Shown one piece after another: positions 4,661 to 33,498 of a stretch of 64,000 bases of DNA. The translations under genes and the position numbers were made by a program. The notes below the pieces were generated by a model. The model saw only the letters and a list, made by a program, of their open reading frames with translations, ran no database searches and was not told the DNA's origin. The stretch covers positions 1,178,001 to 1,242,000 of the forward strand of contig NZ_CP101943.1 in NCBI RefSeq assembly GCF_024508235.1. The letters are read 5' to 3'. This DNA is from Halococcus qingdaonensis. Its GTDB lineage: Archaea > Halobacteriota > Halobacteria > Halobacteriales > Halococcaceae. Positions within the stretch are counted from its first letter, which is position 1, and each line of letters begins with the position of its first letter.

Positions 4661-4680
4661 TCGAAAAGCGATCGAGGGTT

Positions 4681-4687: not shown

Positions 4688-4692
4688 GCCTT

Positions 4693-5364: not shown

Positions 5365-5447
5365 CGTTCGGATCGTTCCGCCGTGGGGACTTCGGCGTTG
5401 CCTTTCGGAACCCACAGGTTTTAGCGCGGTGTGCCCCGAACGGAGCC

Positions 5448-11431: not shown

Positions 11432-11442
11432 CAGACTGATTC

Positions 11443-13176: not shown

Positions 13177-14304
13177 CTACAGATCGTGGCTGTCGGCGAT
13201 GCGATCGAGATGCTCAGTCGGCGTGCCGAGGAACGTCTCCCACGCCTTCGCCTGCTTGAAGTAGATGTGGCCGTCGTGCTCCGAAGTGAAGCCCATCCCG
13301 CCGTGGTTGTGGATGTCGTCGGCGAAGACCTGTGTGAGCTGCTCCGAACAGAACAGTTTGGCCTCCGAGACCGCACGCGCAGCGTCCTCCTCGTCGTTTT
13401 CGAGCGCCCAGGCCGCGTAGTAGGTGAGCGATCGCGCGGCCTGTGTGGCCATCCACATATCGGCGATGCGGTGTTTGACGGCCTGGAACTGCCCGATCGG
13501 TTTGTCGAACTGCTCACGCTGGCTGCCGTACTCGGACGACATCTCCACCGCGCGGCTCGCGGCCCCGACGGTCATCGCACAGGTGGCGACGGTGTACCGA
13601 TCCATCGCTTCCTGGAGCACCGATCCGGCCTCGCCCTCCGTCCCGAGCAGCGCGCTCTCGTCGACGGTGAAGTCGTCGAAATGGAGTTTCGTTGTCGGGC
13701 GCGTCCGATCGAGGGTGTCCTGCGGTTCGCTATCGACGCGCTCGGCATCCACCAGGAAGAGACTGATGCCGTCCATCCCGGTGCCGGAGCCCGTTCGTGC
13801 GGCGACGACGATCGTATCGACCTGCTTGCCGAACGGCACGAGGGTCTTCGTCCCGTCGAGGCGGTACCCCTCGTCGGTCGGTGCGGCGGCGAGTTGGATA
13901 TCCCTGGGCAGCGATTCCTGGCCCGATTCGTAGAGTGCGAAGCTCAGCCGCTGCTCGCCGTCGGCGATCGCCGGCAGGAATTCCTCCTTCTGGTCGTCGG
14001 TGCCGAGTTCGTCGAGCACGAACGCACCGAACGCGAGCGTTTCGGGCAGCGGGGCCGGCAGCGCGACCCGGCCGGCCTCTTCGAGCAACAGCGAGAGGTA
14101 GAGCACGTCGTCGCCCAGCCCGTTGTATTCGAGCGGGATCGTCAGCGCCGGGTAGTCCATCTCGGATAGATCGGCCCAGAGGTCGTCGACCACCGCTTCG
14201 CCGTCGATCCGTTCCCGGGCGCGTTCGAGGACCTCCCGATCCTCGAAGAACTCCCGCGCCGTCTCGCGCATCTGTCGTTGTTCGTCGTTGATTCTGAAGT
14301 CCAT
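13177..14304 (-). CDS. acyl-CoA dehydrogenase, small (beta) subunit of pair 1
   Basis: 375 aa. The acyl-CoA dehydrogenase fold is clear and the FAD-contact motif REQFDKPIGQFQAVKHRIAD is present. However, the usual substrate/FAD loop (YSEP) and the C-terminal GGT-IQR motif are absent; the C-terminus instead reads HDGHIYFKQAKAW. The partner gene at 14306 has exactly the missing motifs. This is the arrangement of alpha2beta2 acyl-CoA dehydrogenases such as ChsE1-ChsE2 of steroid side-chain degradation. One base separates the two genes. It is 70-80 percent like the beta subunit at 19640 by eye. Confidence 0.88.
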   Translation of the reverse strand: MDFRINDEQRQMRETAREFFEDREVLERARERIDGEAVVDDLWADLSEMDYPALTIPLEYNGLGDDVLYLSLLLEEAGRVALPAPLPETLAFGAFVLDELGTDDQKEEFLPAIADGEQRLSFALYESGQESLPRDIQLAAAPTDEGYRLDGTKTLVPFGKQVDTIVVAARTGSGTGMDGISLFLVDAERVDSEPQDTLDRTRPTTKLHFDDFTVDESALLGTEGEAGSVLQEAMDRYTVATCAMTVGAASRAVEMSSEYGSQREQFDKPIGQFQAVKHRIADMWMATQAARSLTYYAAWALENDEEDAARAVSEAKLFCSEQLTQVFADDIHNHGGMGFTSEHDGHIYFKQAKAWETFLGTPTEHLDRIADSHDL

Positions 14305-14305
14305 A

Positions 14306-15484
14306 TCAGTCGTCCTTCGGCAGCCCGAGCACGCGCTCGGCGATGATGTTTCGCTGGACGTCCTTCGTCCCGCCGGCGATCATCTTCCCGTAGGGCATCA
14401 GCAGGTCCGTCACCCACTGGCCATCGTCCGGGCCATCCGTCCAGAGGGCGTTGTTCGCCCCGAGTAATCGCCGCGCGAAGTTCTCCAGCTTCTTCTCGGT
14501 CTGGTTGTTGAACACCTTGTCCATCGACCCCTCCGGGCCGGGAACTCCCGTTTCCATCTGCTTGCTCACGTTCCGGTAGTGAGTGAGTTTACCCGCCTGG
14601 ATGCGGGTGTGGAGCCGGGCGAGTTCGCGGCGCACGTGGGTGTGCTCGGCGAGCGGCTTGCCGTCGCGTTCGTGTTCCTCACAGAACTCGACGAGCGAGC
14701 GCCAACGCTGGTCGATCGAGAACACGTCCGACATGCTGTGCTCGAACGCCGAGAGCGTCATCGCGACCTCCCATCCCTCGTCGATCTCGCCGACGATGTG
14801 CTCTTCGCGCGCCACGGCGTCGTCGAAGAACACCTCGTTGAAATCCGTCTCGTCGGTGATCTGATGGATCGGTTCGGTCTGTATCTCTTCTTGATCCATA
14901 TCAACCAGGAAGACGGTGATGCCGTGGTGTTTCGGCCCCGATTCGTCCGTTCTCGTCAACAGGAAACACCAGTCGGCGACGTGCGCGTAGCTCGTCCAGA
15001 CCTTCTGCCCGTTGAGCAGGAACTCGTCACCGTTTCGATCGGCCGATAGCGAGAGACTCGCGAGGTCAGAACCGGCATCCGGTTCGGAGTAGCCCTGACA
15101 CCAGAGCTCCTCGCCACTCAGGATCTTCGGCAGGAACCGTTCTTTCTGCTCGTCGGTGCCGAGCTCCATCAGCGTCGGCCCGACGAAATCGATGCCGACG
15201 GCGTTGATGCGCGCCGGCGCGTCGACGCGCGCCGTCTCCTGGCTGTAGATGACCTGTTCGAGCAGCGAGGCGTCCGCACCCCCGTACTCTTCAGGCCAGT
15301 GGAGCCCCGCCCAACCACCCTCGTGGAGCGTTCGCTGCCAGTCGAGCAGGAACTCGACGCTTTCTTCGGGATCGTCCGTCCCCGGACGTTCGCCCGCTTG
15401 CCACCCATCCGGCAGGTTCTCGCGAAGCCACTCGCGAAGCTCCTGCCGGAACCGTTCTTGATCCTCGGTGTACTCGAAATCCAT
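14306..15484 (-). CDS. acyl-CoA dehydrogenase, large (alpha, catalytic) subunit of pair 1
   Basis: 392 aa from the ATG at 15484. It carries GYSEPDAGSDLAS at 131-143, the candidate catalytic base Glu248 in SAFEHS, and the C-terminal IAGGTKDVQRNIIAERVLGL FAD motif. It lacks the RxQFxxPIGxFQ motif supplied by the beta subunit encoded directly downstream. Together they would oxidise an acyl-CoA to the enoyl-CoA and pass electrons to ETF. The start is close in sequence to the second alpha subunit at 18455, so the pairs arose by duplication of a two-gene unit. Confidence 0.9.
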   Translation of the reverse strand: MDFEYTEDQERFRQELREWLRENLPDGWQAGERPGTDDPEESVEFLLDWQRTLHEGGWAGLHWPEEYGGADASLLEQVIYSQETARVDAPARINAVGIDFVGPTLMELGTDEQKERFLPKILSGEELWCQGYSEPDAGSDLASLSLSADRNGDEFLLNGQKVWTSYAHVADWCFLLTRTDESGPKHHGITVFLVDMDQEEIQTEPIHQITDETDFNEVFFDDAVAREEHIVGEIDEGWEVAMTLSAFEHSMSDVFSIDQRWRSLVEFCEEHERDGKPLAEHTHVRRELARLHTRIQAGKLTHYRNVSKQMETGVPGPEGSMDKVFNNQTEKKLENFARRLLGANNALWTDGPDDGQWVTDLLMPYGKMIAGGTKDVQRNIIAERVLGLPKDD

Positions 15485-15653
15485 TGTCTGTCTCGACGGG
15501 CTACCGGACGGGGCAATTCCACATATACCTTGTGCAGTGGGCGGAAAAGCGGTGGGACTCGCGGCCGCCGTCGGCGTGTGGAAGGGAAACACGGATTAGG
15601 GACGGGGGCGAACCCCCGGCGAACCAGCGCCGGAGTCGACGCTGGCACATCCC

Positions 15654-16454
15654 ATGAGCGAGCATACCTACACTTCGATCCGAGTCGAACGGGAATCCGA
15701 CACGCTCGGCCACATCGTGCTGGATCGGCCCGAGGAGATGAACACCTTCTCGCCCGCGATGGCCGAAGAGCTCACCGACGCGCTCTCGGAGCTCGAAGAC
15801 GACGACAGCACACGCGCTGTCGTCATCACGGGCGAGGGGCGGGCGTTCTCGGCCGGCGCGGACGTCGGCGACGGGATGGACGACGACAGTGACGATCCGA
15901 CGCGATCCGGCGTCGAATCGTCGCGCCACGGTCAGTCGGTGTTCGGCCAGTTCCGCGAGTCACCGCTGCCCGTCATCGCCGCCGTGGACGGCTTCGCCCT
16001 CGGGGCCGGCATGGAGCTCACCATGTGTGCCGATCTCCGCGTCGCGTCCGAGAGCGCGGAGTTCGGCCTGCCCGAGCACAACCTCGGACTCCTCCCCGGT
16101 TGGGGTGGCTCCGCCCGCCTCCAGCAGCTCGTCGGCGAGAGCACGGCGAAATACATCATCTTCACCGCCGACCGCTTTTCCGCCGAGCAGATGCAAGAAT
16201 GGCAGTACGTCCACGAAGTCTATCCCGACGACGAGTTCGACGAGCGGGCGATCGACTTCGCCCAGTCGATCGCCGAAGGGCCGCCGATCGCCCAGCGGTA
16301 CACGAAACGCGCGATCCACGCCGCTGCCGAGAGCATCGACGCCGGCCTGGAGGTCGAGGCGAGCAGCCTTGGCCATCTCCTCGACACCGACGATCTCGCC
16401 GAGGGGATGGCCGCCTTCTCCGAGCAACGCGAACCGGAGTTCGAAGGGAAGTAA
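15654..16454 (+). CDS. enoyl-CoA hydratase/isomerase (crotonase family)
   Basis: 266 aa. The crotonase oxyanion-hole segments are visible: AFSAGADV at 65-71 and DGFALGAGMEL near 112-122. Glu121 and Glu141 stand 20 residues apart, as the catalytic pair of classical hydratases does, and LPEHNLGLLPGWGGS is typical. It hydrates an enoyl-CoA to the 3-hydroxyacyl-CoA in beta-oxidation. It is divergent from acyl-CoA dehydrogenase pair 1, with a 169-base gap holding both promoters. Confidence 0.92.
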   Translation: MSEHTYTSIRVERESDTLGHIVLDRPEEMNTFSPAMAEELTDALSELEDDDSTRAVVITGEGRAFSAGADVGDGMDDDSDDPTRSGVESSRHGQSVFGQFRESPLPVIAAVDGFALGAGMELTMCADLRVASESAEFGLPEHNLGLLPGWGGSARLQQLVGESTAKYIIFTADRFSAEQMQEWQYVHEVYPDDEFDERAIDFAQSIAEGPPIAQRYTKRAIHAAAESIDAGLEVEASSLGHLLDTDDLAEGMAAFSEQREPEFEGK

Positions 16455-16619
16455 ATCGATTCGGCCGCGACGATACGATGCTGCGGAACGGTCGAACGTT
16501 CCGGGCGGATACGACCAATCGACGTCTTCTCGATAGTTGACGAGATCCTCAGCAGCGTGGGTGGTCGCCTCGCAGTGCACGTCAGCGTGGGAAAGAGAAA
16601 CGGAGACGACGCGTTCAGC

Positions 16620-18302
16620 TCAGAGCTTCTCGCTCGGTTCGAGCGTTCCGATCTCCGATTCGACACGCTCTTCGAGCTTGTACCGTTGGACCTTCTGAGT
16701 CGCGCTTTTGGGGAGTTCATCGACGAAGAACACTCGCCGTGGATGGGCGTACGCCGCGACGTTCTCCAGCGCGAACCGGCGGATTTCGTTCTCGGTGACG
16801 GTTGCACCCTCCTCGCTGACGACGTAGGCGACGGGTGCCTCGCCCTTCACCTCGTGATCGGCGGCGACGACCGCTGCTTCCTCGACGTCGGGATGGAAGA
16901 ACAGTTCGTCCTCGATCTCGGCGGGATAGACGTTCTCGCCGCCGACGACCAGCATGTCGTCGCTCCGATCGACCATCCAGAGGAATCGATCCTCGTCGAC
17001 GCGCGCGATGTCCTTGGTGTAGAACCAGCCCTCGTCGTCGAACACCTCCTCGTTCTTCTCGGGCAGGTTGTAGTAGCCCTCGAACACTGGTGGGCCGCGG
17101 ATCGCGATCTCGCCCGTGTAGCTCGCCTCGTCGTCAAAGTCGGGTTCGTAGCCAGTGAGACCGGCCGGCGCGGTCGGATCGAGATGTTCGGGCGGCACGC
17201 GCGTCTCGCGAGTCGTCGGGTCGACCAGCTTCATCTCGATACCCGGCATCGGCTGGCCGATACAGCCCGCGCCCTTCTGGACGCCCCTCGCGGATGCGGC
17301 CGTGCCCGCCGTGGTTTCGGTCATCCCCCAGCCCTCGACGAGTGCGACGCCGAAGGCATCCTCGATGCGGTTGCGGGTGTCGGCAGCCAGCGGTGCCGCA
17401 CCGATCCCTAGTGTCTTGATCGAGGAGACATCGTACTGCTCGGGGTTGGCTTCGACCTCCTGGAGCATGCTGATGTACAGCGCCGGGACGCCGGTGTGAT
17501 CGGTGATCCCGCGTCGGTCGATCGTTTCGAGCAGCACGTCCGGCCTGAGCTGATTCTGGAGCACGACCGACCGCCCGCTGTACAGCGTCAACAGCGTACT
17601 GCCGATCAGTCCGATGATGTGGTACATCGGCGTGATCAGGAGTATCGAGTCCCCTTCCGGGTCGATCGCCTGCGTTTCGGCGAACGCCTGCAACGTCGTG
17701 AGGATGTTGCGGTGGGTCATCGGGACTCCCTTCGGGTTGCCTGTGGTCCCGCTCGTATAGCCCTGGAAACAGGCGTCGGTCTCGTAATCGCGATCGACGG
17801 TCTCGAACTCCGTGGCGCGGTCCGCGATCAATTCGTCGTAATCCGTGACGCCCCCCGCTTCGCCGCCCGGAACGAACGCGTGTTCGAGATCGAGCGTCTC
17901 GTGGAGCCCGACGACCAGCTCTGCCAGCCGTTCGGAGCCGAACAGGACGTCGACGCCCGCGTCTTCCAGGACGTAGACGAGCCGGTCGTGTGCCAGTTGG
18001 ACATTGAGCGGTACGGCCACCGCCCCTACCTTACAGATACCGAACGCGACCGGCATGTACGTGAGGTTGTTCTCCATCGCAATGGCGACCCGATCGCCCG
18101 GTTCGACGCCCGCGTCGACGAGCCCGTTCGCGATCCTGTTGGCGGTGGCTTCGAGCTCCGCGTAGCTCAGTTCGTCTTCCTGGTGGTGCATCGCCGTCTT
18201 CTCCCCGTATCGCTCGGCTCCCATCGACGGGAGATCCCCGAGATGTCGGAGCGGTGTCCGTTGGTGAAACTTCATCCCTCGATCCGTCACGTTTGAAACC
18301 AT
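16620..18302 (-). CDS. AMP-forming acyl-CoA synthetase
   Basis: 560 aa from the ATG at 18302; an internal ATG at 18275 (MKFHQRTPL) is an alternative. The ANL-family motifs are complete: the P-loop GYTSGTTGNPKGVPMTH, EGWGMTETTAG, the hinge segment YTKDIARVDEDRFLWMVDR and a C-terminal lysine region (LPKSATQKVQR). It activates a carboxylic acid to its CoA thioester and is the likely entry point for the neighbouring acyl-CoA enzymes. The acid cannot be read from the sequence. Confidence 0.9.
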   Translation of the reverse strand: MVSNVTDRGMKFHQRTPLRHLGDLPSMGAERYGEKTAMHHQEDELSYAELEATANRIANGLVDAGVEPGDRVAIAMENNLTYMPVAFGICKVGAVAVPLNVQLAHDRLVYVLEDAGVDVLFGSERLAELVVGLHETLDLEHAFVPGGEAGGVTDYDELIADRATEFETVDRDYETDACFQGYTSGTTGNPKGVPMTHRNILTTLQAFAETQAIDPEGDSILLITPMYHIIGLIGSTLLTLYSGRSVVLQNQLRPDVLLETIDRRGITDHTGVPALYISMLQEVEANPEQYDVSSIKTLGIGAAPLAADTRNRIEDAFGVALVEGWGMTETTAGTAASARGVQKGAGCIGQPMPGIEMKLVDPTTRETRVPPEHLDPTAPAGLTGYEPDFDDEASYTGEIAIRGPPVFEGYYNLPEKNEEVFDDEGWFYTKDIARVDEDRFLWMVDRSDDMLVVGGENVYPAEIEDELFFHPDVEEAAVVAADHEVKGEAPVAYVVSEEGATVTENEIRRFALENVAAYAHPRRVFFVDELPKSATQKVQRYKLEERVESEIGTLEPSEKL

Positions 18303-18454
18303 ATGTCTTAGTTCTTTCCCATAGATTGTTATCGTTTTCCGCGGTCGGCGGCATTGGGGAGAGTGGCTCCACCCGAAATCGGAACGCGATGGTGATCGAG
18401 GGAAAACATTTATCAAAGATAACTGCGGACGTATCGACGGTTGCAAAACCACGC

Positions 18455-19636
18455 ATGAACTTCGACTACACTGACGAGCAGGAGGCGTTCCGTCGCGAGA
18501 TCCGGGAGTGGTACGAGGAGAACCTCCCCGACGGCTGGATCGATGGCGAGCGCGACCTGCCGGACGACGAGGACGAGCGCGAACAGTTCCTCCGGGAGTG
18601 GCAGCGGAAACTCCACGAGGGTGGCTGGGCGGCGATCCACTGGCCCGAGGAGTACGGCGGTCGCGACGCGAGCCTGATGCAGCAGTTGATCTACCAACAG
18701 GAGAAGGCCCGCGTGAACCCGCCGCCCGAGCGCAGCGAGATCGGGGTCGACCTCGTCGGCCCGGCGATCGAAGGGTTCGGCACCGAGGAACAGAAGGAGC
18801 GCTATCTGCCGAAGATCCTGAGCGGCGAGGAACTCTGGTGTATCGGCTACTCCGAACCGGACGTCGGCTCCGACCTCGCGAGCCTCCAGTGCAAAGCCGT
18901 CGACGAGGGCGACCACTTCCGCATCAACGGGCAGAAGATTTGGACGACGCACGCCCACAAAGCCGACTGGTGTTACATGTTCACTCGCACCGATAATTCG
19001 GGACCGAAACACCACGGCATCACGGCCCTCATCGTCGACATGGACCAGGAGGGTGTGACGACCGACCGTATCCGCCAGATCACCGACGAGCGCGAGTTCA
19101 ATCAGGTCTATTTCGACGACGCGACGACGCCGAAGGAGAACGTCCTCAACGAAGTCGATGAGGGCTGGGAGGTCGCCATGCGACAGCTCTCCTTCGAGCG
19201 GATCTCGCTCTCGCAGTCGCTCGATCTCGAACGGCGCTTCGACGAACTCGTCGAGTTCTGTAAGAACGAGACGCGCGGCGGCACGCCGCTGGTGGAGGAT
19301 CCACACGTCCGCGAGAAACTCGCCGAGTTCGACACCCGGATTCAGGCGGCGAAGCTGACCTACTTCCGCAACGTGAGCAAGCAGATGAACGGCGATCTCG
19401 GTGCCGAAGCTTCCTTCGGCAAACTGTACGACAGCGAGATCGCTGCCGACCTCCATCGGTTTAGAGTGAAACTCGGTGGGCCGAAGGCAGCGCTCTGGGG
19501 CGACGACTCGCCGAACGGGGCGGCGAAGGACTCGCTCGCGAACATCTCGATCCGGATCGGCGGCGGGACATCGGACATCCAGCGCAACATCATCGGCGAA
19601 CGCGTGCTCGGACTGCCGAAGGGAGACCAGGAGTAA
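18455..19636 (+). CDS. acyl-CoA dehydrogenase, large (alpha, catalytic) subunit of pair 2
   Basis: 393 aa from the ATG at 18455. GYSEPDVGSDLAS at 131-143, the candidate catalytic base Glu248 in LSFERIS, and the C-terminal RIGGGTSDIQRNIIGERVLG are present. The RxQFxxPIG motif is missing and is supplied by the gene three bases downstream. A TTTATC element lies about 45 bases before the ATG, so a short leader is possible. It is divergent from the acyl-CoA synthetase gene, with a 152-base shared control region. Confidence 0.9.
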   Translation: MNFDYTDEQEAFRREIREWYEENLPDGWIDGERDLPDDEDEREQFLREWQRKLHEGGWAAIHWPEEYGGRDASLMQQLIYQQEKARVNPPPERSEIGVDLVGPAIEGFGTEEQKERYLPKILSGEELWCIGYSEPDVGSDLASLQCKAVDEGDHFRINGQKIWTTHAHKADWCYMFTRTDNSGPKHHGITALIVDMDQEGVTTDRIRQITDEREFNQVYFDDATTPKENVLNEVDEGWEVAMRQLSFERISLSQSLDLERRFDELVEFCKNETRGGTPLVEDPHVREKLAEFDTRIQAAKLTYFRNVSKQMNGDLGAEASFGKLYDSEIAADLHRFRVKLGGPKAALWGDDSPNGAAKDSLANISIRIGGGTSDIQRNIIGERVLGLPKGDQE

Positions 19637-19639
19637 CCC

Positions 19640-20761
19640 ATGGATTTCACGCTCTCGGACGAACAGACACAGATGCAGGAATCGGTGCGTGACTACCTCG
19701 AATCGGAGGGCGGCATCGAACTCGCCCGCCGACAGATGGACGGCGAGGACGTCGTCGGCGAGGTCTGGGACGGTCTCGCGGAGATGGATTACCCCGCATT
19801 GAGCGTCCCGCTCGAATACGGTGGCTTGGGTGACGATCTGCTCTACCTCTCGCTACTGTTCGAGGAGGCCGGCCGGGTCGCACTCCCGGGACCGCTGCCC
19901 GAGACGCTCGGGTTCACCGTCCCGTTACTCGCGGAACTCGGCACCGACGAGCAGAAAGGGCAGTTCCTGCCGGCGATCGCCGACGGCGATCTCCGTGCGA
20001 GCGTCGCACTCTACGACGACGCCACCGAATCGCTCCCCGAAGCCATCCGGATGGAGGCCGAACCCACGGACGACGGCTATCGTCTCGATGGGACGAAGAC
20101 GCTCGTGCCCTACGCCGAAAGCGTCGATCGAGTGGTCGTGCCCGCTCGAACCCGCCAGGACACCGGCTACGGCGGCATCACGCTGTTCTTCGTCGATCCT
20201 GCGGCGGCGGAGGCGGAGCAGCTCGACACGCTCGACAAGACCCGACCGCTGTACGAACTCACCTTCGACGGGGTCGAGGTTTCCGGCGCGCGGCTCGGCC
20301 CGGTCGATGGCGGCGGGGACGCGCTCGAACGCGCCATCGATCGTCTCAACGTCTCGATGTGTGCGATGCTCGTCGGCGGGGCCGACGAGGCGGTCGACCG
20401 GTCGGTCGAGTACGGCAAGCAGCGCGAGCAGTTCGACAAGCCGATCGGACAGTTCCAGGCCGTCAAACACCGCATCGCCGATATGTGGCTCGACACGGAG
20501 GCCGCGCGATCGCTCACCTACTACGCGGCGTGGGCGATCGCGAACGACGAGGAGGACGCACGCCGGGCCGTCTCGGCGGCGACGGCGTACTGCACCGAGC
20601 ACTGTGGCGAGCTCTTCGAGGACGACATCTTCAACCACGGGGCGACGGGCTACACGTGGGACCACGACGGCCATATCTTCCTCAAACAGGCCAAAACGTG
20701 GGCGAACCTCCTCGGCTCGCCGACGGAACATCGCCGACGGATCGCCGACATCCGGCTGTAG
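19640..20761 (+). CDS. acyl-CoA dehydrogenase, small (beta) subunit of pair 2
   Basis: 373 aa, start three bases after the alpha subunit stop, so the two are almost certainly cotranslated. It has REQFDKPIGQFQAVKHRIAD, but no YSEP loop and no C-terminal GGT motif; the end reads HDGHIFLKQAKTW. Motifs are thus complementary to the alpha subunit, as in ChsE-type heterotetramers, where each FAD site is built from both chains. Confidence 0.88.
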   Translation: MDFTLSDEQTQMQESVRDYLESEGGIELARRQMDGEDVVGEVWDGLAEMDYPALSVPLEYGGLGDDLLYLSLLFEEAGRVALPGPLPETLGFTVPLLAELGTDEQKGQFLPAIADGDLRASVALYDDATESLPEAIRMEAEPTDDGYRLDGTKTLVPYAESVDRVVVPARTRQDTGYGGITLFFVDPAAAEAEQLDTLDKTRPLYELTFDGVEVSGARLGPVDGGGDALERAIDRLNVSMCAMLVGGADEAVDRSVEYGKQREQFDKPIGQFQAVKHRIADMWLDTEAARSLTYYAAWAIANDEEDARRAVSAATAYCTEHCGELFEDDIFNHGATGYTWDHDGHIFLKQAKTWANLLGSPTEHRRRIADIRL

Positions 20762-20867: not shown

Positions 20868-22025
20868 CTACACTCGTTCGATGATGGTGGCGACGCCCAT
20901 GCCGAGACCGATACACATCGTCGAGAGCCCGTAGCGCTGGCCAGTCTCTTGGAGCTGGTGGGCGAGTTTCGTCACGAGCATGCTCCCGGTCGCACCGAGC
21001 GGGTGGCCGTGGGCGATCGCCCCGCCCCAGACGTTGGTCCGGTCCCACTCGGCGTCGGTGTCCTGGAGCCACGCCGCGACGACCGACGCGAACGCCTCGT
21101 TGCACTCGAACAGGTCGATGTCCGCCCCGGTCATGTCGTTCGCCGCGAGGATCTCGTTGGTCGCCGGTAGCGGCCCAGTGAGGATCGTCTCTGGCGAGAC
21201 CCCGACGATGTGGGTATCGACGATACGGACCATCGGGTCCCAGCCGCGATCGTCGGCGACGTCAGGGTCCGCGACCAGCAGCGCTGCCGAGCCATCGACG
21301 ACGCCCGAGGAGTTCCCGGCGTGGATGACGCCGTCGCCCTCCTCCCTGGCAAGTACAGGAAGATTCGAGAGCGTCTCCATGTCGGTCTCCGGCCGGGGGT
21401 GTTCGTCGACCTCCACAGTAATGTCCTCGCCGTCGAGTTCGGTCTCGACGGGCGTCACCTGGCTGTCGTAGTGGCCGGCGTCCCAGGCTTCCTTCCAGCG
21501 GCGTTGGGAATCGAGGGCGATCGAGTCGACGTCTTCGCGGGTGATGTCCCAGCGATCGGCGATGAGCTCGGCCCCCTGGAACTGGTTGGTCTCGCTGCCG
21601 ACGGGGAACAGTTCGTGGTAGGTCTCGCTGCGCTCGCCCGCATCGTCTCCGATAGCGTGGTCGGTCATATGCTCGACGCCGCCGGCGACCATTACATCTC
21701 GATAGCCCGACTTCACGCTCGCAGCGGCGAGGTTGAGGGTCGTCTGGCCCGAGCCACACATCCGATTGAGCTGGAAGCCCGGGACGGCGTCGCCCCAGCC
21801 GGCGACCATCGTCGCGTGCCGACCGATGTTGCTCCCCTGCTTGTCGACGGCGGTGACACAGCCGATCGCGGCGTCGTCGACGGTGGTCGCGGGATCGAAC
21901 CCGACCCGTTCTTCGAGCGCGCGTAGCGGTGCGGCCGCGAGGTCCTGGGGGTGCGTGTCGCGGAACACGCCCCCGTCCGCCCCGAACGGCGTTCTGACGC
22001 AGTCGACGATAACAGGATCGTTCAT
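20868..22025 (-). CDS. acetyl-CoA C-acyltransferase (beta-ketothiolase)
   Basis: 385 aa from the ATG at 22025. All thiolase residues are present: nucleophile Cys90 in NRMCGSGQTT, NEAFAS, GHPLGATGS with the catalytic His, and a second Cys in STMCIGLGMG. It cleaves a 3-ketoacyl-CoA to acetyl-CoA in the last step of beta-oxidation, or condenses acetyl-CoA. It is the only one of the three thiolase-fold genes in the window that keeps the nucleophile. It converges on acyl-CoA dehydrogenase pair 2. Confidence 0.93.
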   Translation of the reverse strand: MNDPVIVDCVRTPFGADGGVFRDTHPQDLAAAPLRALEERVGFDPATTVDDAAIGCVTAVDKQGSNIGRHATMVAGWGDAVPGFQLNRMCGSGQTTLNLAAASVKSGYRDVMVAGGVEHMTDHAIGDDAGERSETYHELFPVGSETNQFQGAELIADRWDITREDVDSIALDSQRRWKEAWDAGHYDSQVTPVETELDGEDITVEVDEHPRPETDMETLSNLPVLAREEGDGVIHAGNSSGVVDGSAALLVADPDVADDRGWDPMVRIVDTHIVGVSPETILTGPLPATNEILAANDMTGADIDLFECNEAFASVVAAWLQDTDAEWDRTNVWGGAIAHGHPLGATGSMLVTKLAHQLQETGQRYGLSTMCIGLGMGVATIIERV

Positions 22026-22812: not shown

Positions 22813-23589
22813 TCAGAACGCGAACAGGTCCGCACCGCCGGTGACGCCGACGAGCTGGCCGGTGATGTAGTTCGCCTGCTCGCTCGACAGGTAGGCGATG
22901 AGGTTCGCGATGTCCTCCTCGCGGCCGGCTCGGCGCATCGGGATCATCTCCACGATCCGGTGCATGTGCTCGTCCATCGCCTCGATCTCCTCCAACTCCA
23001 GGTCGGCGAGCTCGCTCGCCGCGAGACTCGGCGCGACGATGTTCGCCGTGACACCCGACTGTGCGCCCTCTAGCGCGAGCGTCTTGCCGAAGCCGATGAG
23101 CGCGGATTTCGTCGCCGAGTAGGAGGCTTGGCCGAATCCACCGAGCCAGCCCGCGATCGACGTCATGTTCATGACCCGGCCCCAGCCGCGCTCGCACATC
23201 GCGGGGAACACCTCGCGGGTGATGTTGTACGTCCCGGTGAGGTTGACCGCCACGTCGCGGTCCCAGAGATCGTCGTCGTAGTTCTCGAGCTTCGAGCGCG
23301 CGTCGACCGCCGCCGCGTTGTTGACGAGGATATCGACGCCGCCGCTCTCCTCGCGGATCGTCTCGATCGTCGAGGCGACGCCATCGCGATCGGTGAGATC
23401 ACACTCGACCGCCTCGACGCTGCCGGCGACGTCGTCGAGGTCGGCCGCGACCGATTCGGCACCCTCCAGATCGACATCGAGACAGTAGACGTCCGCGCCT
23501 TCGTCGGCGAGTATCTCACAGTCGGCGCTGCCGATCCGGCCACCGCCGCCGGTGACGACGGCGGTCTTGTCGCTGATTCCGAGATCCAT
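22813..23589 (-). CDS. short-chain dehydrogenase/reductase (FabG / 3-hydroxyacyl-CoA dehydrogenase-like)
   Basis: 258 aa from the ATG at 23589. The Rossmann motif is VVTGGGGRIGSADC at about residues 11-24, followed by LVNNAAAVD, the catalytic Ser in MTSIAGW and the YSATK active site (Tyr and Lys). It reduces or oxidises a hydroxyl/keto group with NAD(P). In this setting it probably oxidises a 3-hydroxyacyl-CoA or a related alcohol. It is divergent from the aldolase-type gene at 23679; the two share an 89-base control region with a TATA element for each. Confidence 0.9.
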   Translation of the reverse strand: MDLGISDKTAVVTGGGGRIGSADCEILADEGADVYCLDVDLEGAESVAADLDDVAGSVEAVECDLTDRDGVASTIETIREESGGVDILVNNAAAVDARSKLENYDDDLWDRDVAVNLTGTYNITREVFPAMCERGWGRVMNMTSIAGWLGGFGQASYSATKSALIGFGKTLALEGAQSGVTANIVAPSLAASELADLELEEIEAMDEHMHRIVEMIPMRRAGREEDIANLIAYLSSEQANYITGQLVGVTGGADLFAF

Positions 23590-23678: not shown

Positions 23679-24860
23679 ATGCCGTGGAATTCAGACGCAT
23701 GTATCGTCGGACTCGGCGAGACGGAATATGTCAAACAGGGCGAGATGACCGACCGCAGCGAGTTCGAGCTCGCCTGTGAGGCGATCGAGAACGCCGCCGG
23801 GGACGCCGGCGTCGACATCGAGGACGTCGACGGCTTCTCGTCGTACGCGAACGATCGGAACAAGGGCTCGCTCGTCGCCGATGCGCTCGGCATCCCTGAA
23901 GTGAAGTTCTCGAACAAGGTCTGGGGCGGCGGTGGCTGTGGCGGCTCCGCCGCGGTGATGAACGCCGCGATGGCCATCGAGTCGGGCGCGGCGGAGTACG
24001 TCGTCGCCTACCGCGCGCTCTGTCAGGGCCAGTTCGGCCGTCGTGGCCAGACACAGGGTATCGATTACGCGGAGGGTACCGACGCGTTTGCCCACTCCCT
24101 TGGTCTCGAAACGCCGCCGCAGATGTACGCGCTGCCCGCACAGCGCTACATGCACGAATACGACATCCCACAGGAACATTTGGGCCACGTCGCGCTCACC
24201 TCGCGCGCCCACGCGAACCGCAACCCGCGGGCCGTAATGCACGACCGCGAGATGACGATGGAGGAGTACATGGATTCGCCGCCGATCACCGACCCGTACA
24301 AGCTCTACGACTGCTGTCTCGAAAGCGACGGGGCCTGTGCCGTGCTCGTTACCTCCGCCGAGAACGCTGCCGACCTGCCACAGCCGGCCGTCGAGATCAC
24401 GTCGGCCGCACAGGGCGGTGGCCCGGGCTGGGGCAGCGGGATCCTCTCCTCGCACAACATGCCGCTTGAGGACTACCCGACCTCGAACGCCGCGCGGGTC
24501 GCCGACCGGCTGTTCGAGAGCGCCGGGCTCACGCCCGACGACATCGACGTCGCACAGCTCTACGAGAACTTCACCGGGATGGTGTTGATGACCGCCGAGG
24601 ACTACGGGTTCGCACCTCGCGGCGAGGCCGGCGAGCTGTTCGTCGACGGCAACGCCATCGGGCCCGACGCCGATCTCCCGATCAACACTTCCGGTGGGAA
24701 TCTCTCGGAGGCGTACATCCACGGGTTCAACCTCGTCGTCGAAGCCGCCCGGCAAGTCAGAGGTACCTCACCGACGCAGGTCGACGACGTCGAGTACAGC
24801 CTCGTCGCCAGCGGGCCGGGCGTGACCCCCCACAGCGGGCTGATCCTCTCGCCCGCGTAG
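23679..24860 (+). CDS. thiolase-fold protein of the Ltp2 (retro-aldolase) type
   Basis: 393 aa. The thiolase fold is recognisable (CIVGLGETEY start), but the catalytic set is changed: the nucleophile Cys position is Gly85 in VWGGGGCGGS, and the usual GHPxGxSG histidine loop is replaced by TSGGNLSEAYIHG with Tyr346. LYENFTG carries Tyr295. Loss of Cys/His with a tyrosine in this loop is the hallmark of Ltp2-type steroid side-chain aldolases, which work with a DUF35 partner. A DUF35 gene is the third gene of this operon. Probable role: retro-aldol cleavage of a 3-hydroxyacyl-CoA with a tertiary alcohol. Confidence 0.82.
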   Translation: MPWNSDACIVGLGETEYVKQGEMTDRSEFELACEAIENAAGDAGVDIEDVDGFSSYANDRNKGSLVADALGIPEVKFSNKVWGGGGCGGSAAVMNAAMAIESGAAEYVVAYRALCQGQFGRRGQTQGIDYAEGTDAFAHSLGLETPPQMYALPAQRYMHEYDIPQEHLGHVALTSRAHANRNPRAVMHDREMTMEEYMDSPPITDPYKLYDCCLESDGACAVLVTSAENAADLPQPAVEITSAAQGGGPGWGSGILSSHNMPLEDYPTSNAARVADRLFESAGLTPDDIDVAQLYENFTGMVLMTAEDYGFAPRGEAGELFVDGNAIGPDADLPINTSGGNLSEAYIHGFNLVVEAARQVRGTSPTQVDDVEYSLVASGPGVTPHSGLILSPA

Positions 24861-24877: not shown

Positions 24878-25939
24878 ATGAGTTCAGAAAACGACGACGT
24901 CACGGCGATCGACGTAGCGACGGGATCGTTCGAGGAAGCACAGGAGTGGGTCGGCCGGTCCGGAGACACGTTCTTTGCCGCAGAACCGGTCAACCGCTCG
25001 ATGATCCAGTTCTACGCCGCGCTGATCGAGGACGCGAACCCCTCCTTCTGGGACGAGCGCTTCGCGGCGAACCACTGGGGCGGGGTTCGGAGCCCGCCGG
25101 GTCTGTTCTGGACCTGGAAGATGGATCCGGAGTGGACACCCGGCCCGGAGACCGAGGGGGACGAGGGTGAGGACGTCTCGGTGACGGACGTGCCGTTGCC
25201 GGGCGGGAAGGACACCATCATCAACACGCAGTCGAAGACCACGATCTATCGACCGCTGCTGGTCGGCACGCAGCTGAACTGGCAGACCTCGATCGAGTCC
25301 GTGAGCGAGGAGAAGGAGACACGGGTCGGGACGGGCAACTTCGTCACCGAGAAGACGACCTACCGCGACGGCGGCGGCGAACTCGTCGCCGAGGAGTCGA
25401 ACGTGATGCTCCGTTACAGTGCCGCCGACGAGGAGGAGAACACGGAATCGTTCGATACGCCCTTCGCCGAGGGTCGTCGTGCGGTCGACGTGCCGGAGGG
25501 GCAGGGACCCGACGACCCGTACGCATCGATCGACGTCGGCGAGGTCTCGCCAGGCGACACGGTCGAGGGATACGAATTTCCGGTCACGTACACGAAGGTC
25601 GTCCACAACGCGGCCGCGACGCGGGACTTCTCGGGCCATCACCACGATCCGGAGTACACCCGCTCACGGGGTAACGAGACGATCTTCCTCAACACGATGG
25701 CGCTTCAAGGATTGGCCGACCGGGTGGCGGTGCAGTGGGCCGGCCCGGAGTGGCGGATCGCCGAGCGCGAGATCGCCATCCAGGGGACGGCCTATGCCGG
25801 CGACGAACTCTCGGTCGGAGCCGAGGTCACGGACGTCGACGAAACCGAGGGCCGGATCGAGCTCGCCGTGACGATGGACAACGACGGCCGGGACGTCTGT
25901 CCGTCGTCGGTCGCGCTCGTCAGGGACGGGGTGAAATAG
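24878..25939 (+). CDS. MaoC-type double hot-dog enoyl-CoA hydratase
   Basis: 353 aa made of two hot-dog domains. The N-terminal half (~20-180) resembles FAS1-like/ChsH dehydratase halves (MIQFYAALIEDANPSFWDE). The C-terminal half carries the hydratase-2 motif RDFSGHHHDPEY with Asp250 and His255. It would hydrate the enoyl-CoA made by an acyl-CoA dehydrogenase pair and hand the product to the adjacent aldolase, as ChsH1-ChsH2 do for Ltp2. It starts 17 bases after the aldolase gene. Confidence 0.85.
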   Translation: MSSENDDVTAIDVATGSFEEAQEWVGRSGDTFFAAEPVNRSMIQFYAALIEDANPSFWDERFAANHWGGVRSPPGLFWTWKMDPEWTPGPETEGDEGEDVSVTDVPLPGGKDTIINTQSKTTIYRPLLVGTQLNWQTSIESVSEEKETRVGTGNFVTEKTTYRDGGGELVAEESNVMLRYSAADEEENTESFDTPFAEGRRAVDVPEGQGPDDPYASIDVGEVSPGDTVEGYEFPVTYTKVVHNAAATRDFSGHHHDPEYTRSRGNETIFLNTMALQGLADRVAVQWAGPEWRIAEREIAIQGTAYAGDELSVGAEVTDVDETEGRIELAVTMDNDGRDVCPSSVALVRDGVK

Positions 25940-26043: not shown

Positions 26044-26469
26044 ATGAGAGGTACTACCAGAGAGGAGATCTTCCCGCTCCCGGAGAAGGGAATCGACACC
26101 GCCCCGTTCTGGGAGGCGTGCAACCGACACGAGCTCGTCGTCCAGGAGTGCGCGGACTGTGGCGAGCGCCGGCACCCGCCCACGCCGGTCTGTCCCGAAT
26201 GTCGCTCGTTCGAGGTCGACTGGGCTGATGTCCCCGGTACGGGCGAGGTCTACACGTACACGACGACCCACTACGCCGCCAGCCCCGCCCACGAGGACCA
26301 CACCCCCTACAACGTCTCGACCGTCCTGCTCGACGGAACCGAGGATATCCGCCTCATCACGCAGGTCGTCGATGTCGATCCCGAAGCGGTCGAGATCGGC
26401 ATGCCGGTCGAAGTGGTTTGGGAGGACGTCAACGAAGATACGACGGTCCCGCTGTTCCGTCCCTCCTGA
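26044..26469 (+). CDS. DUF35 zinc-ribbon/OB-fold protein, aldolase partner
   Basis: 141 aa. The rubredoxin-like zinc ribbon is CADCGERRHPPTPVCPEC near residues 37-54, followed by the OB fold with VPGTGEVYTYTTTHY. DUF35 proteins bind to thiolase-fold enzymes and help form their CoA channel; in steroid degradation the DUF35 domain is fused to the MaoC protein ChsH2, while here it is a separate gene about 100 bases downstream of the MaoC gene. Start ATG at 26044. Confidence 0.88.
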   Translation: MRGTTREEIFPLPEKGIDTAPFWEACNRHELVVQECADCGERRHPPTPVCPECRSFEVDWADVPGTGEVYTYTTTHYAASPAHEDHTPYNVSTVLLDGTEDIRLITQVVDVDPEAVEIGMPVEVVWEDVNEDTTVPLFRPS

Positions 26470-26478: not shown

Positions 26479-27447
26479 TCAGTCGGCGAGCACGCATTTT
26501 CTGACCCCGTCGGTTTCGTGCCAGTCGATTCGACCCTCGTCGTCGAGCAGGTCGAGATGGCCGACGACCTCGGAGATTCCCACGAATCCCTCGGTCGCGG
26601 GCAGTTCCGGAAACAGCTCGTTCATCAGTCGATAGGCCGTGGTTCCCGGTTCGGAGTCGGGAACCATCCCCGCGATGTGTTCCTTTCGCTCGTGATGGTG
26701 GGCGATCGTCTCGTCGATGCGTTCCTGGAGAGCCGTCATTCGCTCGCCGTGGCCACCGTAGCCGACCGCCTCGTCGACCGCACGAAGTTTTTCGAGCGAC
26801 GCGAGATACGTCGGGAGGCTCCGTGTTCGCTCGTCGCTTTTCCCGGGGAGTGTCGTGAGCGTCGGGTTCGGGGTGATGTCCGGGAGCACGTGATCGCCGG
26901 TGAAGACGGTGTTCTCGCTTCGGAGCCGATAACAGACCGAGCCGACGGCGTGGCCCGGCGTGTGAACGCAGTCGAGAGTGACGCCGACATCGAGTCGCTC
27001 GCCGTCGGCGACCGTCCGATCGGGTGAGACCGGACGCTGGAAATCCGTGTACGATTCGGGGAGCGTGAGGACAGTCCGGACGGTGTCGTCGGGCATCCCC
27101 ATCGAACGCAAGAATGCGTGGAAGAACGCCTGTTCGTCCTCGAACTGGCCGGTCGGGGCCGCGAGGCGCTCGACCGCGTCCTCGTGGGCGATGACGCGCG
27201 CATCCGCCTCGTTGGCGAGCCGCCGTGCGCCGCCAAAGTGGTCCATGTGTGGGTGCGTGATGAGAACGTTCGCGATGTCTTCGACGGAGTAATCACGCTC
27301 GTTCAGACCCGAGCGGAGTGCCGTCCGAGCGTCGGCTGTCTCCGGCCCGGGATCGATCACGGTGAGTTCAGCCGTCGGTAGCAGGTAACAGTTGACATCC
27401 CCGACGTTGAAGGGCGTCGGCAGCCGTATTCGATCGATGCTGGTCAC
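26479..27447 (-). CDS. MBL-fold metallo-hydrolase
   Basis: 322 aa. The metallo-beta-lactamase motif THPHMDHFGG (HxHxDH) is near residue 64, with the later histidine in DCVHTPGHAVGS, Asp in FTGDHVLPD and GGHGE. These bind two metals. C-terminal helices are like those of glyoxalase-II-like and LACTB2-like hydrolases. In this setting a thioesterase-like or lactonase role is possible but not shown. It converges on the DUF35 gene with a nine-base gap. Confidence 0.88.
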   Translation of the reverse strand: MTSIDRIRLPTPFNVGDVNCYLLPTAELTVIDPGPETADARTALRSGLNERDYSVEDIANVLITHPHMDHFGGARRLANEADARVIAHEDAVERLAAPTGQFEDEQAFFHAFLRSMGMPDDTVRTVLTLPESYTDFQRPVSPDRTVADGERLDVGVTLDCVHTPGHAVGSVCYRLRSENTVFTGDHVLPDITPNPTLTTLPGKSDERTRSLPTYLASLEKLRAVDEAVGYGGHGERMTALQERIDETIAHHHERKEHIAGMVPDSEPGTTAYRLMNELFPELPATEGFVGISEVVGHLDLLDDEGRIDWHETDGVRKCVLAD

Positions 27448-27554: not shown

Positions 27555-28337
27555 TCACTGAGTCGTACTGTACTGTGCGTACGTGAGGTTGAACTCCAAG
27601 ACGTTCTTGAGTCTGCGGAGCGCCTCGGGTAGTTCCTCGGTGAGGCGCTCGTCGGTGAACTCGCTCGCGGGGCCGTAGACGAGGATCGAGCCGATGTTGC
27701 GGGCGTCCTCGACGAGGATCGGGATCGCGATTTCGTGGATGCCGACGATGTCCTCCTCGCGCGAGACGGCGTAGCCGACCTCCCGGATCGTTTCGAGTTC
27801 CTCGAACAGCGTCTCCCGATCGGTGATCGTGTTCTCGGTGACGGCGTCGAGCCCGACGCGCTCGACGATCTCCACGACTCGTTCGTGCGGGAGACTTGCC
27901 AGAATGGCCTTGCCGCCCGCGTTGATGTGGAGATAGTTGCGATTGCCCGCCCGTGGCTGAATCCGTATCGAATCGTCGTTCTCGACGCTGTAGAGCGTGA
28001 CGCCATAGCCACTCTCCTCCTTCAACAGGGCGATGTTGTTGTCGGTCTCGGCGGCGAACTTGTCGATCTCCGGCTTCGCCGCCGCGTACAACGGGTCCTG
28101 GCTCCGTACCTCCGTGCCGATCGAGAGATGGAGCGAGCTGACGTAGTAGCCGTCGTCGCCACGGATGACGTAGCCGATTTCGGTCAACGTACTGAGATAT
28201 TCGTGAGTCGTGCTCAGCGGTCTGTCGATCCGTTCGGCGGTCTCGGTAACGCCTGCGCCGTCGTTCTCGACCAGGAAATCGATGATGTCCTTGGCGGTCC
28301 TGAGCGACTGTATCGGCACGGTGTCGGATGCATCCAT
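27555..28337 (-). CDS. IclR-family transcriptional regulator
   Basis: 260 aa from the ATG at 28337; the frame extends upstream but the extra residues are basic and hydrophobic. An N-terminal winged helix (SLRTAKDIIDFLVE, VTETAERIDRPLSTTHEYLSTL) is followed by the effector-binding GAF-like domain (LHINAGGKAILASLP, GYAVSREEDIVGIHEIAIPI). IclR proteins control catabolic operons for acids and aromatic compounds. It lies between the acyl-CoA block and etfBA, so it is the best local candidate for controlling them. Confidence 0.9.
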   Translation of the reverse strand: MDASDTVPIQSLRTAKDIIDFLVENDGAGVTETAERIDRPLSTTHEYLSTLTEIGYVIRGDDGYYVSSLHLSIGTEVRSQDPLYAAAKPEIDKFAAETDNNIALLKEESGYGVTLYSVENDDSIRIQPRAGNRNYLHINAGGKAILASLPHERVVEIVERVGLDAVTENTITDRETLFEELETIREVGYAVSREEDIVGIHEIAIPILVEDARNIGSILVYGPASEFTDERLTEELPEALRRLKNVLEFNLTYAQYSTTQ

Positions 28338-28521
28338 ACAGAAATGGGCCGGCGATTCAACATCAAGGTTTCGTGTATATCGAAAGCAGCGCAGCAGGGC
28401 AGCGATGGCCGAGGATCGGCAGTTCTGGTACAGCCACCACAACGGTTAGATCGGCGAATGATTGCTTCCGAGATATCGATCGCGAGCGCGCGGACTGCAA
28501 AGGTCGCACACACCGGTATCG

Positions 28522-28549: not shown

Positions 28550-29341
28550 ATGAAGGTTCTGGTGGCAGTGGCGGAGGTGGCCGACGTCGAGGACGAGTTC
28601 GAAATCGACGGGCTGGCCATCGACGAGCAGTACCTGAACTACGATCTCAACGAGTGGGACGACTACGCCGTCGAGGCGGGCGTCCAGCTCCAAGAAGCGG
28701 GCGACGATGTCGAGGTCGTCTCGGTGACGATCGGACCTGAACGCGCCGACGAAACCATCCGCATGGCGCTCGCCAAGGGTGTCGATCGTGCCGTCCGTGT
28801 CTGGGACGAGAATCTGGAGGCGACGGAATACCTCGACAGCGAGACCAAAGCCGACGTTCTGGCGGCCGTCGTCGAGGACGAACAGCCCGATCTCGTTCTC
28901 GCTGGCGTCCAATCCGACGACACCGCCTTCGGCGCGACCGGAGTCTCCCTCGCCGAGGAAGTCGGCTTCGAGTGGGCCGCCGTCGTCAACGATCTGGAGT
29001 ACGAACCAGGAAGCGACATCGCATCGGTCCACCGCGAACTCGAAGGTGGTGTCGAGGAGTTCACTGACGTCGAACTACCCGCTGTGTTGACCATCCAGAC
29101 GGGGATCAACGAACCACGGTACGCCAGCCTGCGCGGGATTCGGCAGGCCCAGTCCAAGGAGATCGCGCCCAAAACCCTCGACGAACTGGGTCTTGAATCT
29201 GACGTCACCGACAGTGCGGTGTCACTCACCGAGCTCTACGAACCGGAGACCGAAAGCGACGCCACCCTCTTCGAGGGCAGCCCCGACGAGGAGGCCGACC
29301 AACTCGCCGAGCTCCTCCGCGACGAGGGGGTCGAAGCATGA
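28550..29341 (+). CDS. etfB: electron transfer flavoprotein beta subunit
   Basis: 263 aa. The ETF-beta pattern is visible: an early N-D-Y-A-V-E-A motif (LNEWDDYAVEAGVQL), VVSVTIGPERADETIRMALA, the LAGVQSDDTAFGATGVSLAE segment and the conserved IRQAQSKEI near residue 195. ETF takes electrons from acyl-CoA dehydrogenases and passes them to the membrane quinone pool. Its stop overlaps the etfA start by four bases. Placement next to four dehydrogenase genes fits. Confidence 0.93.
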   Translation: MKVLVAVAEVADVEDEFEIDGLAIDEQYLNYDLNEWDDYAVEAGVQLQEAGDDVEVVSVTIGPERADETIRMALAKGVDRAVRVWDENLEATEYLDSETKADVLAAVVEDEQPDLVLAGVQSDDTAFGATGVSLAEEVGFEWAAVVNDLEYEPGSDIASVHRELEGGVEEFTDVELPAVLTIQTGINEPRYASLRGIRQAQSKEIAPKTLDELGLESDVTDSAVSLTELYEPETESDATLFEGSPDEEADQLAELLRDEGVEA

Positions 29342-30309
29342 GCGATATTCTGGCCGTCGCCGAACACCGCCGCGGCGACCTCCGTGATGTGAGCTTCGAA
29401 CTCGTCACTGCCGGGCGCGACCTCGCCGACGCCGCCGGTGGCGACCTCCACGTGGCCGTCATCGGCGGCGACGTCGACGGGTTCGCCGAGGAACTGAACC
29501 GCGAGGGCGTCGATACGATTCACACGATTAGTGAGGGCGAGGAGTTCAATCACGACGTCTACACTCAAATCGTCGAAGCGCTCTTCGACGAACTGGCTCC
29601 GGAACTGCTCCTGCTACCCAACACGGTCAACGGGCTCGACTACGCACCAGCTGTTGCTAACAGTCTGTCGCTGCCACTCGTCACCGACGCCATCGACGTC
29701 GAGTACGGTGACGAACTGGCCGTCACTCGCGAGATGTACGGCTCGAAAGTCGAGACAGTGGTCGAGGTCGACGCCGATCGGGTAGCACTGACGATCCGCC
29801 CCGGCGAGTGGCCACCCGCCGAGGCCACTGGCGATGCCGAAATCAGCCAATTCGACGTCTCGATCGACGAATCGGCCGTCCGCTCGACCGTGACTGGGTT
29901 CCAAGAAGTCGGTGGTGGCGACGTCGACATCACCGACGCCGACGTTCTGGTGAGCGTCGGGCGCGGTATCGAGGAAGAAGAGAACATCGCGCTCGTCGAA
30001 GCGCTGGCCGACACGCTCGGTGCGACGCTCTCTTCATCGAGGCCGATCGTCGACAACGGCTGGCTGCCCAAAAACCGGCAGGTCGGCCAATCCGGGAAGG
30101 TCGTCACTCCTGATGTGTATATCGCCATCGGCATCTCGGGGGCCGTCCAGCACGTCGCCGGCATGAAGGGTGCCGACACCATCGTCGCCATCAACACCGA
30201 CGCGAGCGCCCCCATCTACGATCTCGCCGACTACGGCGTCGTCGACGACCTCTTCGACGTCGTTCCCGCCCTCATCGAAGCCTTCGGTGGCGAACCGCCC
30301 GCACTCTGA
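29338..30309 (+). CDS. etfA: electron transfer flavoprotein alpha subunit
   Basis: 323 aa, overlapping etfB by four bases. The C-terminal FAD-binding region is typical: ADVLVSVGRGIEEEEN, SRPIVDNGWLPKNRQVGQSG, YIAIGISGAVQHVAGMKGA and IVAINTDASAPIYDLADYGV. It holds the FAD of the ETF heterodimer. Nothing unusual. Confidence 0.95.
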   Translation: MSDILAVAEHRRGDLRDVSFELVTAGRDLADAAGGDLHVAVIGGDVDGFAEELNREGVDTIHTISEGEEFNHDVYTQIVEALFDELAPELLLLPNTVNGLDYAPAVANSLSLPLVTDAIDVEYGDELAVTREMYGSKVETVVEVDADRVALTIRPGEWPPAEATGDAEISQFDVSIDESAVRSTVTGFQEVGGGDVDITDADVLVSVGRGIEEEENIALVEALADTLGATLSSSRPIVDNGWLPKNRQVGQSGKVVTPDVYIAIGISGAVQHVAGMKGADTIVAINTDASAPIYDLADYGVVDDLFDVVPALIEAFGGEPPAL

Positions 30310-33434: not shown

Positions 33435-33498
33435 ATCCACTAGCTATGGGGGCGCTCGTTGTAAGAATACCGCTCTCGCCTCGGTTCGGGGGATGCTC

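Follow-up and report, generated by a model that had tools for sequence, protein, structure and literature searches.

Two acyl-CoA dehydrogenase pairs with divided motifs

We analyzed a 64 kb window (the whole stretch of DNA under study, 65% GC) of the haloarchaeon Halococcus qingdaonensis (contig NZ_CP101943.1, positions 1,178,001 to 1,242,000), whose genome of 2.70 Mb lies on one contig and is 95% complete; a tRNA scan found none. The window carries two pairs of acyl-CoA dehydrogenase (ACAD) genes, each made of a large (alpha-type) and a small (beta-type) chain, in a cluster with genes for an Ltp2-like aldolase, a DUF35 protein and a fused MaoC hydratase. Pair 1 lies on the minus strand, with the small chain at 13177..14304 (375 aa) and the large chain at 14306..15484 (392 aa), and pair 2 lies on the plus strand, with the large chain at 18455..19636 (393 aa) and the small chain at 19640..20761 (373 aa). 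The genes within a pair are separated by 1 base in pair 1 and by 3 bases in pair 2, and the crotonase and ligase genes lie between the pairs. An earlier note on this DNA had given these coordinates and lengths and had described the pairs as inverted relative to each other, and both were correct on re-check.

The earlier note had also claimed that the ACAD motifs are split between the partners, which was borne out by an alignment of 99 rows and a check of the residues. The large chains carry YSEP132, Glu248 and a C-terminal GGT (GGT371 in pair 1, GGT370 in pair 2) and lack REQFDKPIG, which is present in both small chains (from REQF263 in pair 1 and REQF262 in pair 2). The small chains have neither YSEP nor GGT, and the catalytic Glu is also gone at the aligned column. 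The division goes further than had been described, as the large chains lack the Q of QxxGG and the small chains read HNHGG/FNHGA. We found the identical division in 9/9 haloarchaeal large/small pairs of this alignment (2 in the window, 7 elsewhere), and the solved ChsE4 chain and the Tcur3483/Tcur3481 pair showed it as well. All 12 other ACADs of the same genome that were aligned (12 of 13; L125 was not included) carry [ST]E at the YSEP site together with RxxF at the RxQF site, indicating that the motif split is not a haloarchaeal habit. Given the nine haloarchaeal pairs, the solved heteromers and the own-genome controls, the split exceeds chance.

In a search of the PDB, large chain 1 best matched Tcur3483 (6wy9_A, 184.9 bits; 6wy8_B, 183.2 bits), followed by ChsE4 (4x28_A, 171.4 bits), and ChsE4 (4x28_A, 201.3 bits) was the best match of large chain 2. 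Tcur3481 (6wy8_A) ranked second for small chain 1 (150 bits) and third for small chain 2 (116.1 bits).

Phylogeny of the large and small chains

We placed the chains in a tree of 96 rows, namely those of at least 250 aa; the three rows left out are the short N halves of Lentzea fusions. The large chains fell in a clade of 33 rows (support 100/100) that also holds ChsE4, Tcur3483, the C halves of fused ACADs and the large chains of Rhodococcus and Lentzea. A second clade, of 26 rows (100/100), unites the small chains with Tcur3481 and with small chains of the ChsE1-E2 type; ChsE5 (4x28_D) was not in this tree. Both clades stand apart from the ordinary ACADs of the own genome. The earlier note had assigned the pairs to the heteromeric (alpha2beta2) ACAD family, and the motifs and the tree support this membership, the phylogeny relating both chains to heteromeric families rather than detaching them. 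As far as sequence can tell, the heteromeric reading of both pairs is well supported.

The narrower identification of the pairs with ChsE1-E2 and ChsE4-E5 did not hold. The haloarchaeal chains form their own clade within the large and within the small group (9 rows each, 100/100), while ChsE4, Tcur3483 and the Rhodococcus and Lentzea large chains form a clade (100/99) that excludes all nine haloarchaeal large chains; in a smaller tree, ChsE4 and Tcur3483 again grouped together (100/100) outside the haloarchaeal clade. Moreover, the top NCBIfam models are PimC, PimD and acryloyl-CoA reductase. The known heteromers ChsE1-ChsE2, ChsE4-ChsE5 and Tcur3481-Tcur3483 (4x28, 6wy8) share adjacency, motif division and clades with the window pairs, whereas the window chains are only 31-33% identical to the solved heteromer chains, form a clade of their own and occur without detected steroid nucleus catabolism. 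In our assessment, the ChsE label fits the appearance of the proteins and probably their working mode, and is probably wrong for orthology and steroid use.

The two large chains are 57.3% identical and the two small chains 61.1%, with about 22% between partners, and the first two values together with the shared clades indicate that the pairs are paralogous. To this extent the origin by duplication proposed earlier stands; a direct sister relationship is less secure, since approximately unbiased (AU) tests, on groups chosen after the tree had been inspected, weakly rejected the sister grouping of the two large chains (p 0.030) but not that of the two small chains (p 0.12). In the 96-row tree, the window chains that group more closely with those of other haloarchaea are large chain 1 and small chain 2, which are not partners. 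The AU tests on this partner arrangement gave p 0.05 and 0.08, and a partner swap is therefore not claimed.

An Ltp2-like aldolase, a DUF35 protein and a fused MaoC hydratase

The Ltp2-like aldolase of the SCP2-thiolase fold (23679..24860, plus strand, 393 aa) matched the T. curvata Ltp2 structure 6ok1_A at 275.2 bits and the NCBIfam model PRK07855 at 399 bits, below its cut-off of 469. Its Tyr295, within a YENF motif, and its Tyr346 occupy the positions of Tyr294 and Tyr344 of TcLtp2, which PMC12329534 describes as catalytic base and acid. The same paper gives Sal, the proteobacterial bile-acid aldolase, a YDCY motif with Gln at the second Tyr position. Judged by these aligned residues, the window protein has the Ltp2-type Tyr/Tyr pair and not the Cys of thiolase or Sal. 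YENF is found in 55/87 Ltp2-like rows, among which L037 is without the second Tyr; the other motif classes among these rows are YDHF, YDAF, YEHF and YDNF, and nearly all have the second Tyr. We know of no characterised member of the YENF class.

A stand-alone DUF35 protein (zf-ChsH2 + OB_ChsH2_C; 26044..26469, plus strand; PF01796, PF12172) is the predicted partner of the aldolase, and its best PDB match was the DUF35 part of ChsH2 in the same structure (6ok1_B, 107.9 bits).

Between the two lies the gene of a two-domain MaoC hydratase (24878..25939, plus strand, 353 aa) with a ChsH2-like N half fused to a ChsH1-like C half. The alignment showed Phe57 at the position of the catalytic His in the N half and the Asp250/His255 MaoC dyad in the C half. 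ChsH2 has Tyr in place of the catalytic His, according to PMC11321319. The protein is thus a putative asymmetric hydratase, in which the N half would be inert like ChsH2 and the C half catalytic like ChsH1.

A second SCP2-type thiolase-like protein is encoded at 46040-47404 (minus strand), beside a protein of 131 aa (region 45648-47404), and shows a 30-38% match to the Ltp2-like region and to SCP2-type thiolases of other haloarchaea. These genes resemble what we take to be the archaeal acetoacetyl-CoA thiolase/DUF35/HMG-CoA synthase set.

Distribution and synteny among haloarchaea

Searches across 391 genomes of the class scored at most 4 candidates per genome, so that their counts are lower bounds, and every candidate was scored in a set of 60 relatives. 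The Ltp2-like gene was found in 3/60 genomes of the relatives set and in at least 3/391 of the class, all of the same genus and including the own genome, and it was absent from seven same-genus genomes in the 60-genome search. The igr-like kit of ACAD pair, MaoC, DUF35 and aldolase was thus found in one haloarchaeal genus, in at least 3/391 genomes, with the gene block syntenic across all three carriers. The ACAD large chain has a wider distribution, in at least 8/391 genomes of five genera (E up to 1e-70).

Seven ACAD pairs were examined elsewhere in haloarchaea, six from five genomes and one on a Halomarina plasmid; an ACAD match at 55% identity is from Halomarina. The settings of these pairs vary, and their neighbours include luciferase-like monooxygenases, paired metallo-beta-lactamase proteins, CoA-transferases, thiolases and hydantoinase-type genes, which suggests further degradation routes with the same ACAD type. 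At two loci (L030:1-3045 and L007:103-4505), the pair is near hydantoinase/oxoprolinase-type genes, with an HyuA domain in L030 and relatives in L007.

In six other genomes of the genus, the roughly 17 kb compared to the right of mutS contained none of the genes that lie on that side of mutS in the window (E up to 1e-15, >40% identity), and the opposite side of mutS is conserved in G004, the one genome examined there. This comparison gave no clean insertion boundary, and the GC content of the block gives no sign of a foreign origin.

Other genes of the neighborhood

The two genes between the pairs encode an enoyl-CoA hydratase (crotonase) of 266 aa (15654..16454, plus strand; PF00378, E 3.1e-61), with EchA19 as its best NCBIfam model (198 bits, below cut-off), and an AMP-forming acyl-CoA ligase of 560 aa (16620..18302, minus strand; PF00501, E 4.7e-82). 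In the carrier G001, an extra permease-like gene (L012:4721-5875) lies between ligase and crotonase and is 28% identical to the permease at 10034 in the window. Pair 2 is followed by a thiolase of 385 aa (20868..22025, minus strand; PF00108/PF02803), over the cut-off of the NCBIfam model AcCoA-C-Actrans, and by a short-chain dehydrogenase/reductase (SDR) of 258 aa from an internal ATG (22813..23589, minus strand; PF00106), which is likely a 3-hydroxyacyl-CoA dehydrogenase. We rejected a specifically FadA5-like assignment of the thiolase, because FadA5 (4ubv, 230.5 bits) ranked only seventh in the PDB; the steroid thiolase model PRK07850 scored 298.6 bits, under its cut-off.

Downstream of the DUF35 gene are genes for a metallo-beta-lactamase-fold hydrolase (26479..27447, minus strand; PF00753, E 3.1e-27) and an IclR-family protein (27555..28442, minus strand; PF01614, PF09339), a candidate regulator of the cluster. 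An EtfB-like subunit (28550..29341, plus strand; PF01012) and an alpha subunit (29338..30309, plus strand; PF00766, PF01012) of an electron-transfer flavoprotein (ETF) follow, and this ETF is the likely electron acceptor of the ACADs.

Directly upstream of the cluster, at 10034-13101, lie genes for a permease of the APC type and for a 552-aa Amidohydro_3 protein, which are kept in both other carriers and could serve substrate uptake and hydrolysis. The amidohydrolase appears in two pieces in G001, and a search run without a positive control gave no match (E up to 1e-100) to it in seven further genomes of the genus. The region after the cluster (31027-38803), which encodes a TetR regulator, an ABC transporter recognised by the Pfam match of its ATPase and a Gfo/Idh/MocA dehydrogenase, is likewise kept in both other carriers; it also holds small proteins that look UspA-like by inspection.

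Related loci in bacteria

Most known cases of the trio of heteromeric ACAD, asymmetric hydratase and DUF35-aldolase come from bacteria that degrade steroids, among them M. tuberculosis. The igr operon of this species and other actinobacteria shares with the window an ACAD pair, an asymmetric MaoC hydratase, DUF35 and an Ltp2-type aldolase in one locus. The domain arrangement is reversed, in that the window has fused MaoC halves and a separate DUF35, whereas the igr ChsH2 is a MaoC-DUF35 fusion that works beside ChsH1. The window further differs in its haloarchaeal host, in reading YENF instead of YDHF, and in having a thiolase arm and two ACAD pairs spread over both strands. Similarly, the Sal/Shy system for bile acids has an SCP2-thiolase-fold aldolase with a DUF35 partner, while Sal uses YDCY and Gln where the window aldolase has Tyr/Tyr (PMC12329534), and Shy is a homomeric MaoC (PMC11321319) in contrast to the fused asymmetric halves of the window.

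We compared the best 80 of at least 587 confirmed Ltp2-like relatives in bacteria. Seven of these loci (Lentzea L092, L101 and L112; Rhodococcus L103-L106) combine ACAD chains, MaoC, DUF35 and Ltp2, and three further loci (L042, L047, L053) combine MaoC, Ltp2 and DUF35. A plasmid of Rhodococcus has two MaoC genes, an OB-fold gene separate from them, and Ltp2; a freed DUF35 is therefore not unique to the window. In Comamonas ORF40, the MaoC and DUF35 parts remain functional when expressed separately, as stated in PMC12502768.

The igr-like loci of Lentzea and Rhodococcus hold a ChsE1-E2-type pair and a fused two-half ACAD. The fused ACADs beside the Rhodococcus loci (L105 at about 4132-6294, 720 aa; L106 at about 4211-6352, 713 aa) are small-type in their N half and large-type in their C half and appear to be like ChsE3/FadE34, a name used in PMC6678751. 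Such an ACAD is a natural fusion, whereas the window keeps the two chains as separate genes.

Proposed pathway and alternative explanations

We propose that the cluster probably degrades a bulky or beta-branched acyl-CoA, which is probably not a steroid, by two rounds of beta-oxidation, one with thiolytic and the other with retro-aldol cleavage as its last step. The ligase would make the acyl-CoA from a bulky or beta-branched carboxylic acid. Each large/small pair would form an alpha2beta2 tetramer, with YSEP, Glu248 and GGT of the large chain making up the active site and RxQF of the small chain contributing its part of the flavin adenine dinucleotide site, so that each pair would have a single working site and each tetramer two. 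The thiolytic round would use an ACAD, the crotonase, the SDR and the thiolase, and the aldolytic round would use an ACAD, the fused asymmetric MaoC hydratase and, for the retro-aldol cleavage, the Ltp2-like aldolase with its DUF35 partner, with ETF taking the electrons from the ACADs. Retro-aldol cleavage is chemically required only with a fully substituted beta carbon, as a tertiary hydroxyl cannot become a ketoacyl-CoA. Two ACAD pairs for two rounds would be the simplest assignment, and we infer the assembly, the order of steps, the assignment of pairs to rounds and the substrate class alike.

A bulky or branched substrate is favored over straight-chain fat, because the ACADs and the hydratase are both asymmetric, with a catalytic and an accommodating half, as in steroid enzymes that seat a bulky group. 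The suggestion in the earlier note of two acyl-CoA substrates with bulky groups also fits the neighbors, among which are the Ltp2-like aldolase and the fused hydratase resembling ChsH2-ChsH1. In a more specific and only tentative version, the ChsE-ChsH-Ltp2 strategy would be applied to a non-steroid substrate, such as an isoprenoid or other beta-branched or cyclic acid, and retro-aldol cleavage would remove the blocked beta carbon and give a ketone.

Several observations weigh against the proposed pathway. For the aldolase, the oxyanion His296 of the TcLtp2 YDHF motif is replaced by Asn in YENF, and in a quick tree the window protein fell outside the clade of the igr rows (TcLtp2 included) and L009 (SH-aLRT 100). 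Moreover, among the same 80 bacterial loci, DUF35 is near the Ltp2-like gene in 78 and MaoC in 10, and the 70 loci without a MaoC match indicate that this aldolase family has wider uses. For the MaoC protein, ChsH1 (42.5 bits) and ChsH2 (36.6 bits) ranked first in the PDB search although the similarity is weak, the AlphaFold2 model is of moderate confidence (pLDDT 71, pTM 0.73), and its nearest full-length folds in a Foldseek search of the PDB were general two-domain MaoC hydratases/dehydratases. No shared operator motif was found among 7 promoter regions, as a 12-mer (<=2 mismatches) occurred in at most 3/7, and in shuffled regions 2-3 also shared a 12-mer. Finally, two marker genes carry the argument for a non-steroid substrate.

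It is also conceivable, though rather unlikely, that both pairs act on dicarboxyl- or cycloaliphatic acyl-CoAs as PimCD-like dehydrogenases, and that the aldolase and MaoC belong to a separate pathway that is adjacent by chance. PimC is the best NCBIfam model for both large chains (241.8 and 264.4 bits), PimD is the best for small chain 2 (131.7 bits) and the third for small chain 1 (149.1 bits; acryloyl-CoA reductase is best there, far below cut-off), and the occurrence of the pairs without Ltp2 in other haloarchaea points the same way. However, the scores are far under the cut-offs of 623.85 for PimC and 652.7 for PimD, reaching at most 42% and 23% of them, respectively, while a Delftia plasmid chain scores 449.6 and sits outside the haloarchaeal clade. 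The synteny of the entire block in three carriers further argues against a chance neighborhood.

We consider unlikely a true steroid side-chain pathway of the bile-acid type, in which acetyl-CoA would be cut from a C5 side chain by one ACAD pair with the thiolase, propionyl-CoA by the second pair with MaoC and aldolase, and the 17-ketosteroid left over would be excreted or degraded by another route. The full parts list parallels the pathway as laid out in PMC6678751 and PMC12502768, actinobacterial igr-like loci hold the same kit, and the ligase matches the CasG profile at 250.6 bits, which is below both its cut-off and a generic ligase model (435.3 bits). Profile scores do not favor steroid enzymes, given this ligase result and the seventh rank of FadA5, and the P450 genes of the window's genome (4 matches) are uninformative, since all five genomes compared have such genes. 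A KstD-like query from a Lentzea locus, so named from its sequence and position and not by a family call, matched in 2/2 bacterial controls and in 0/3 carriers (E up to 1e-10). Similarly, KshA_C was not found in 3/3 carriers and was present in 2/2 bacterial controls, in a search that did not extend to HsaC, anaerobic 2,3-seco enzymes or other ring routes. These absences make the known aerobic ring pathway unlikely and are compatible with other ring routes or with side-chain trimming alone. Together with the positions of the aldolase outside the igr Ltp2 clade and of the ACADs outside the ChsE1/ChsE4 clade, they speak against the link to cholesterol drawn earlier, and the machinery probably acts on another bulky or branched acid.

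Ordinary homomeric ACADs with some motifs lost or shifted are highly improbable, given the reciprocal loss in adjacent genes of all nine haloarchaeal pairs and in solved heteromers, the two sites kept in the own-genome ACADs and the separate clades.

Implications

We found no paper on this module in archaea in a partial literature search, which does not establish its absence from the literature. What the analysis adds is an archaeal aldolase module whose domains are arranged differently and whose host has no detected steroid-ring genes. If the tentative non-steroid version of the pathway is true, the machinery known from steroid side chains would belong to a broader set of tools for beta-blocked acyl-CoAs, and the window would hold a form of it in which DUF35 is free and the MaoC halves are fused. 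The haloarchaeal version is a testable case for the trio as a general solution to acyl-CoAs that are bulky or beta-branched, and aldolases of this fold that tolerate salt could serve as catalysts.

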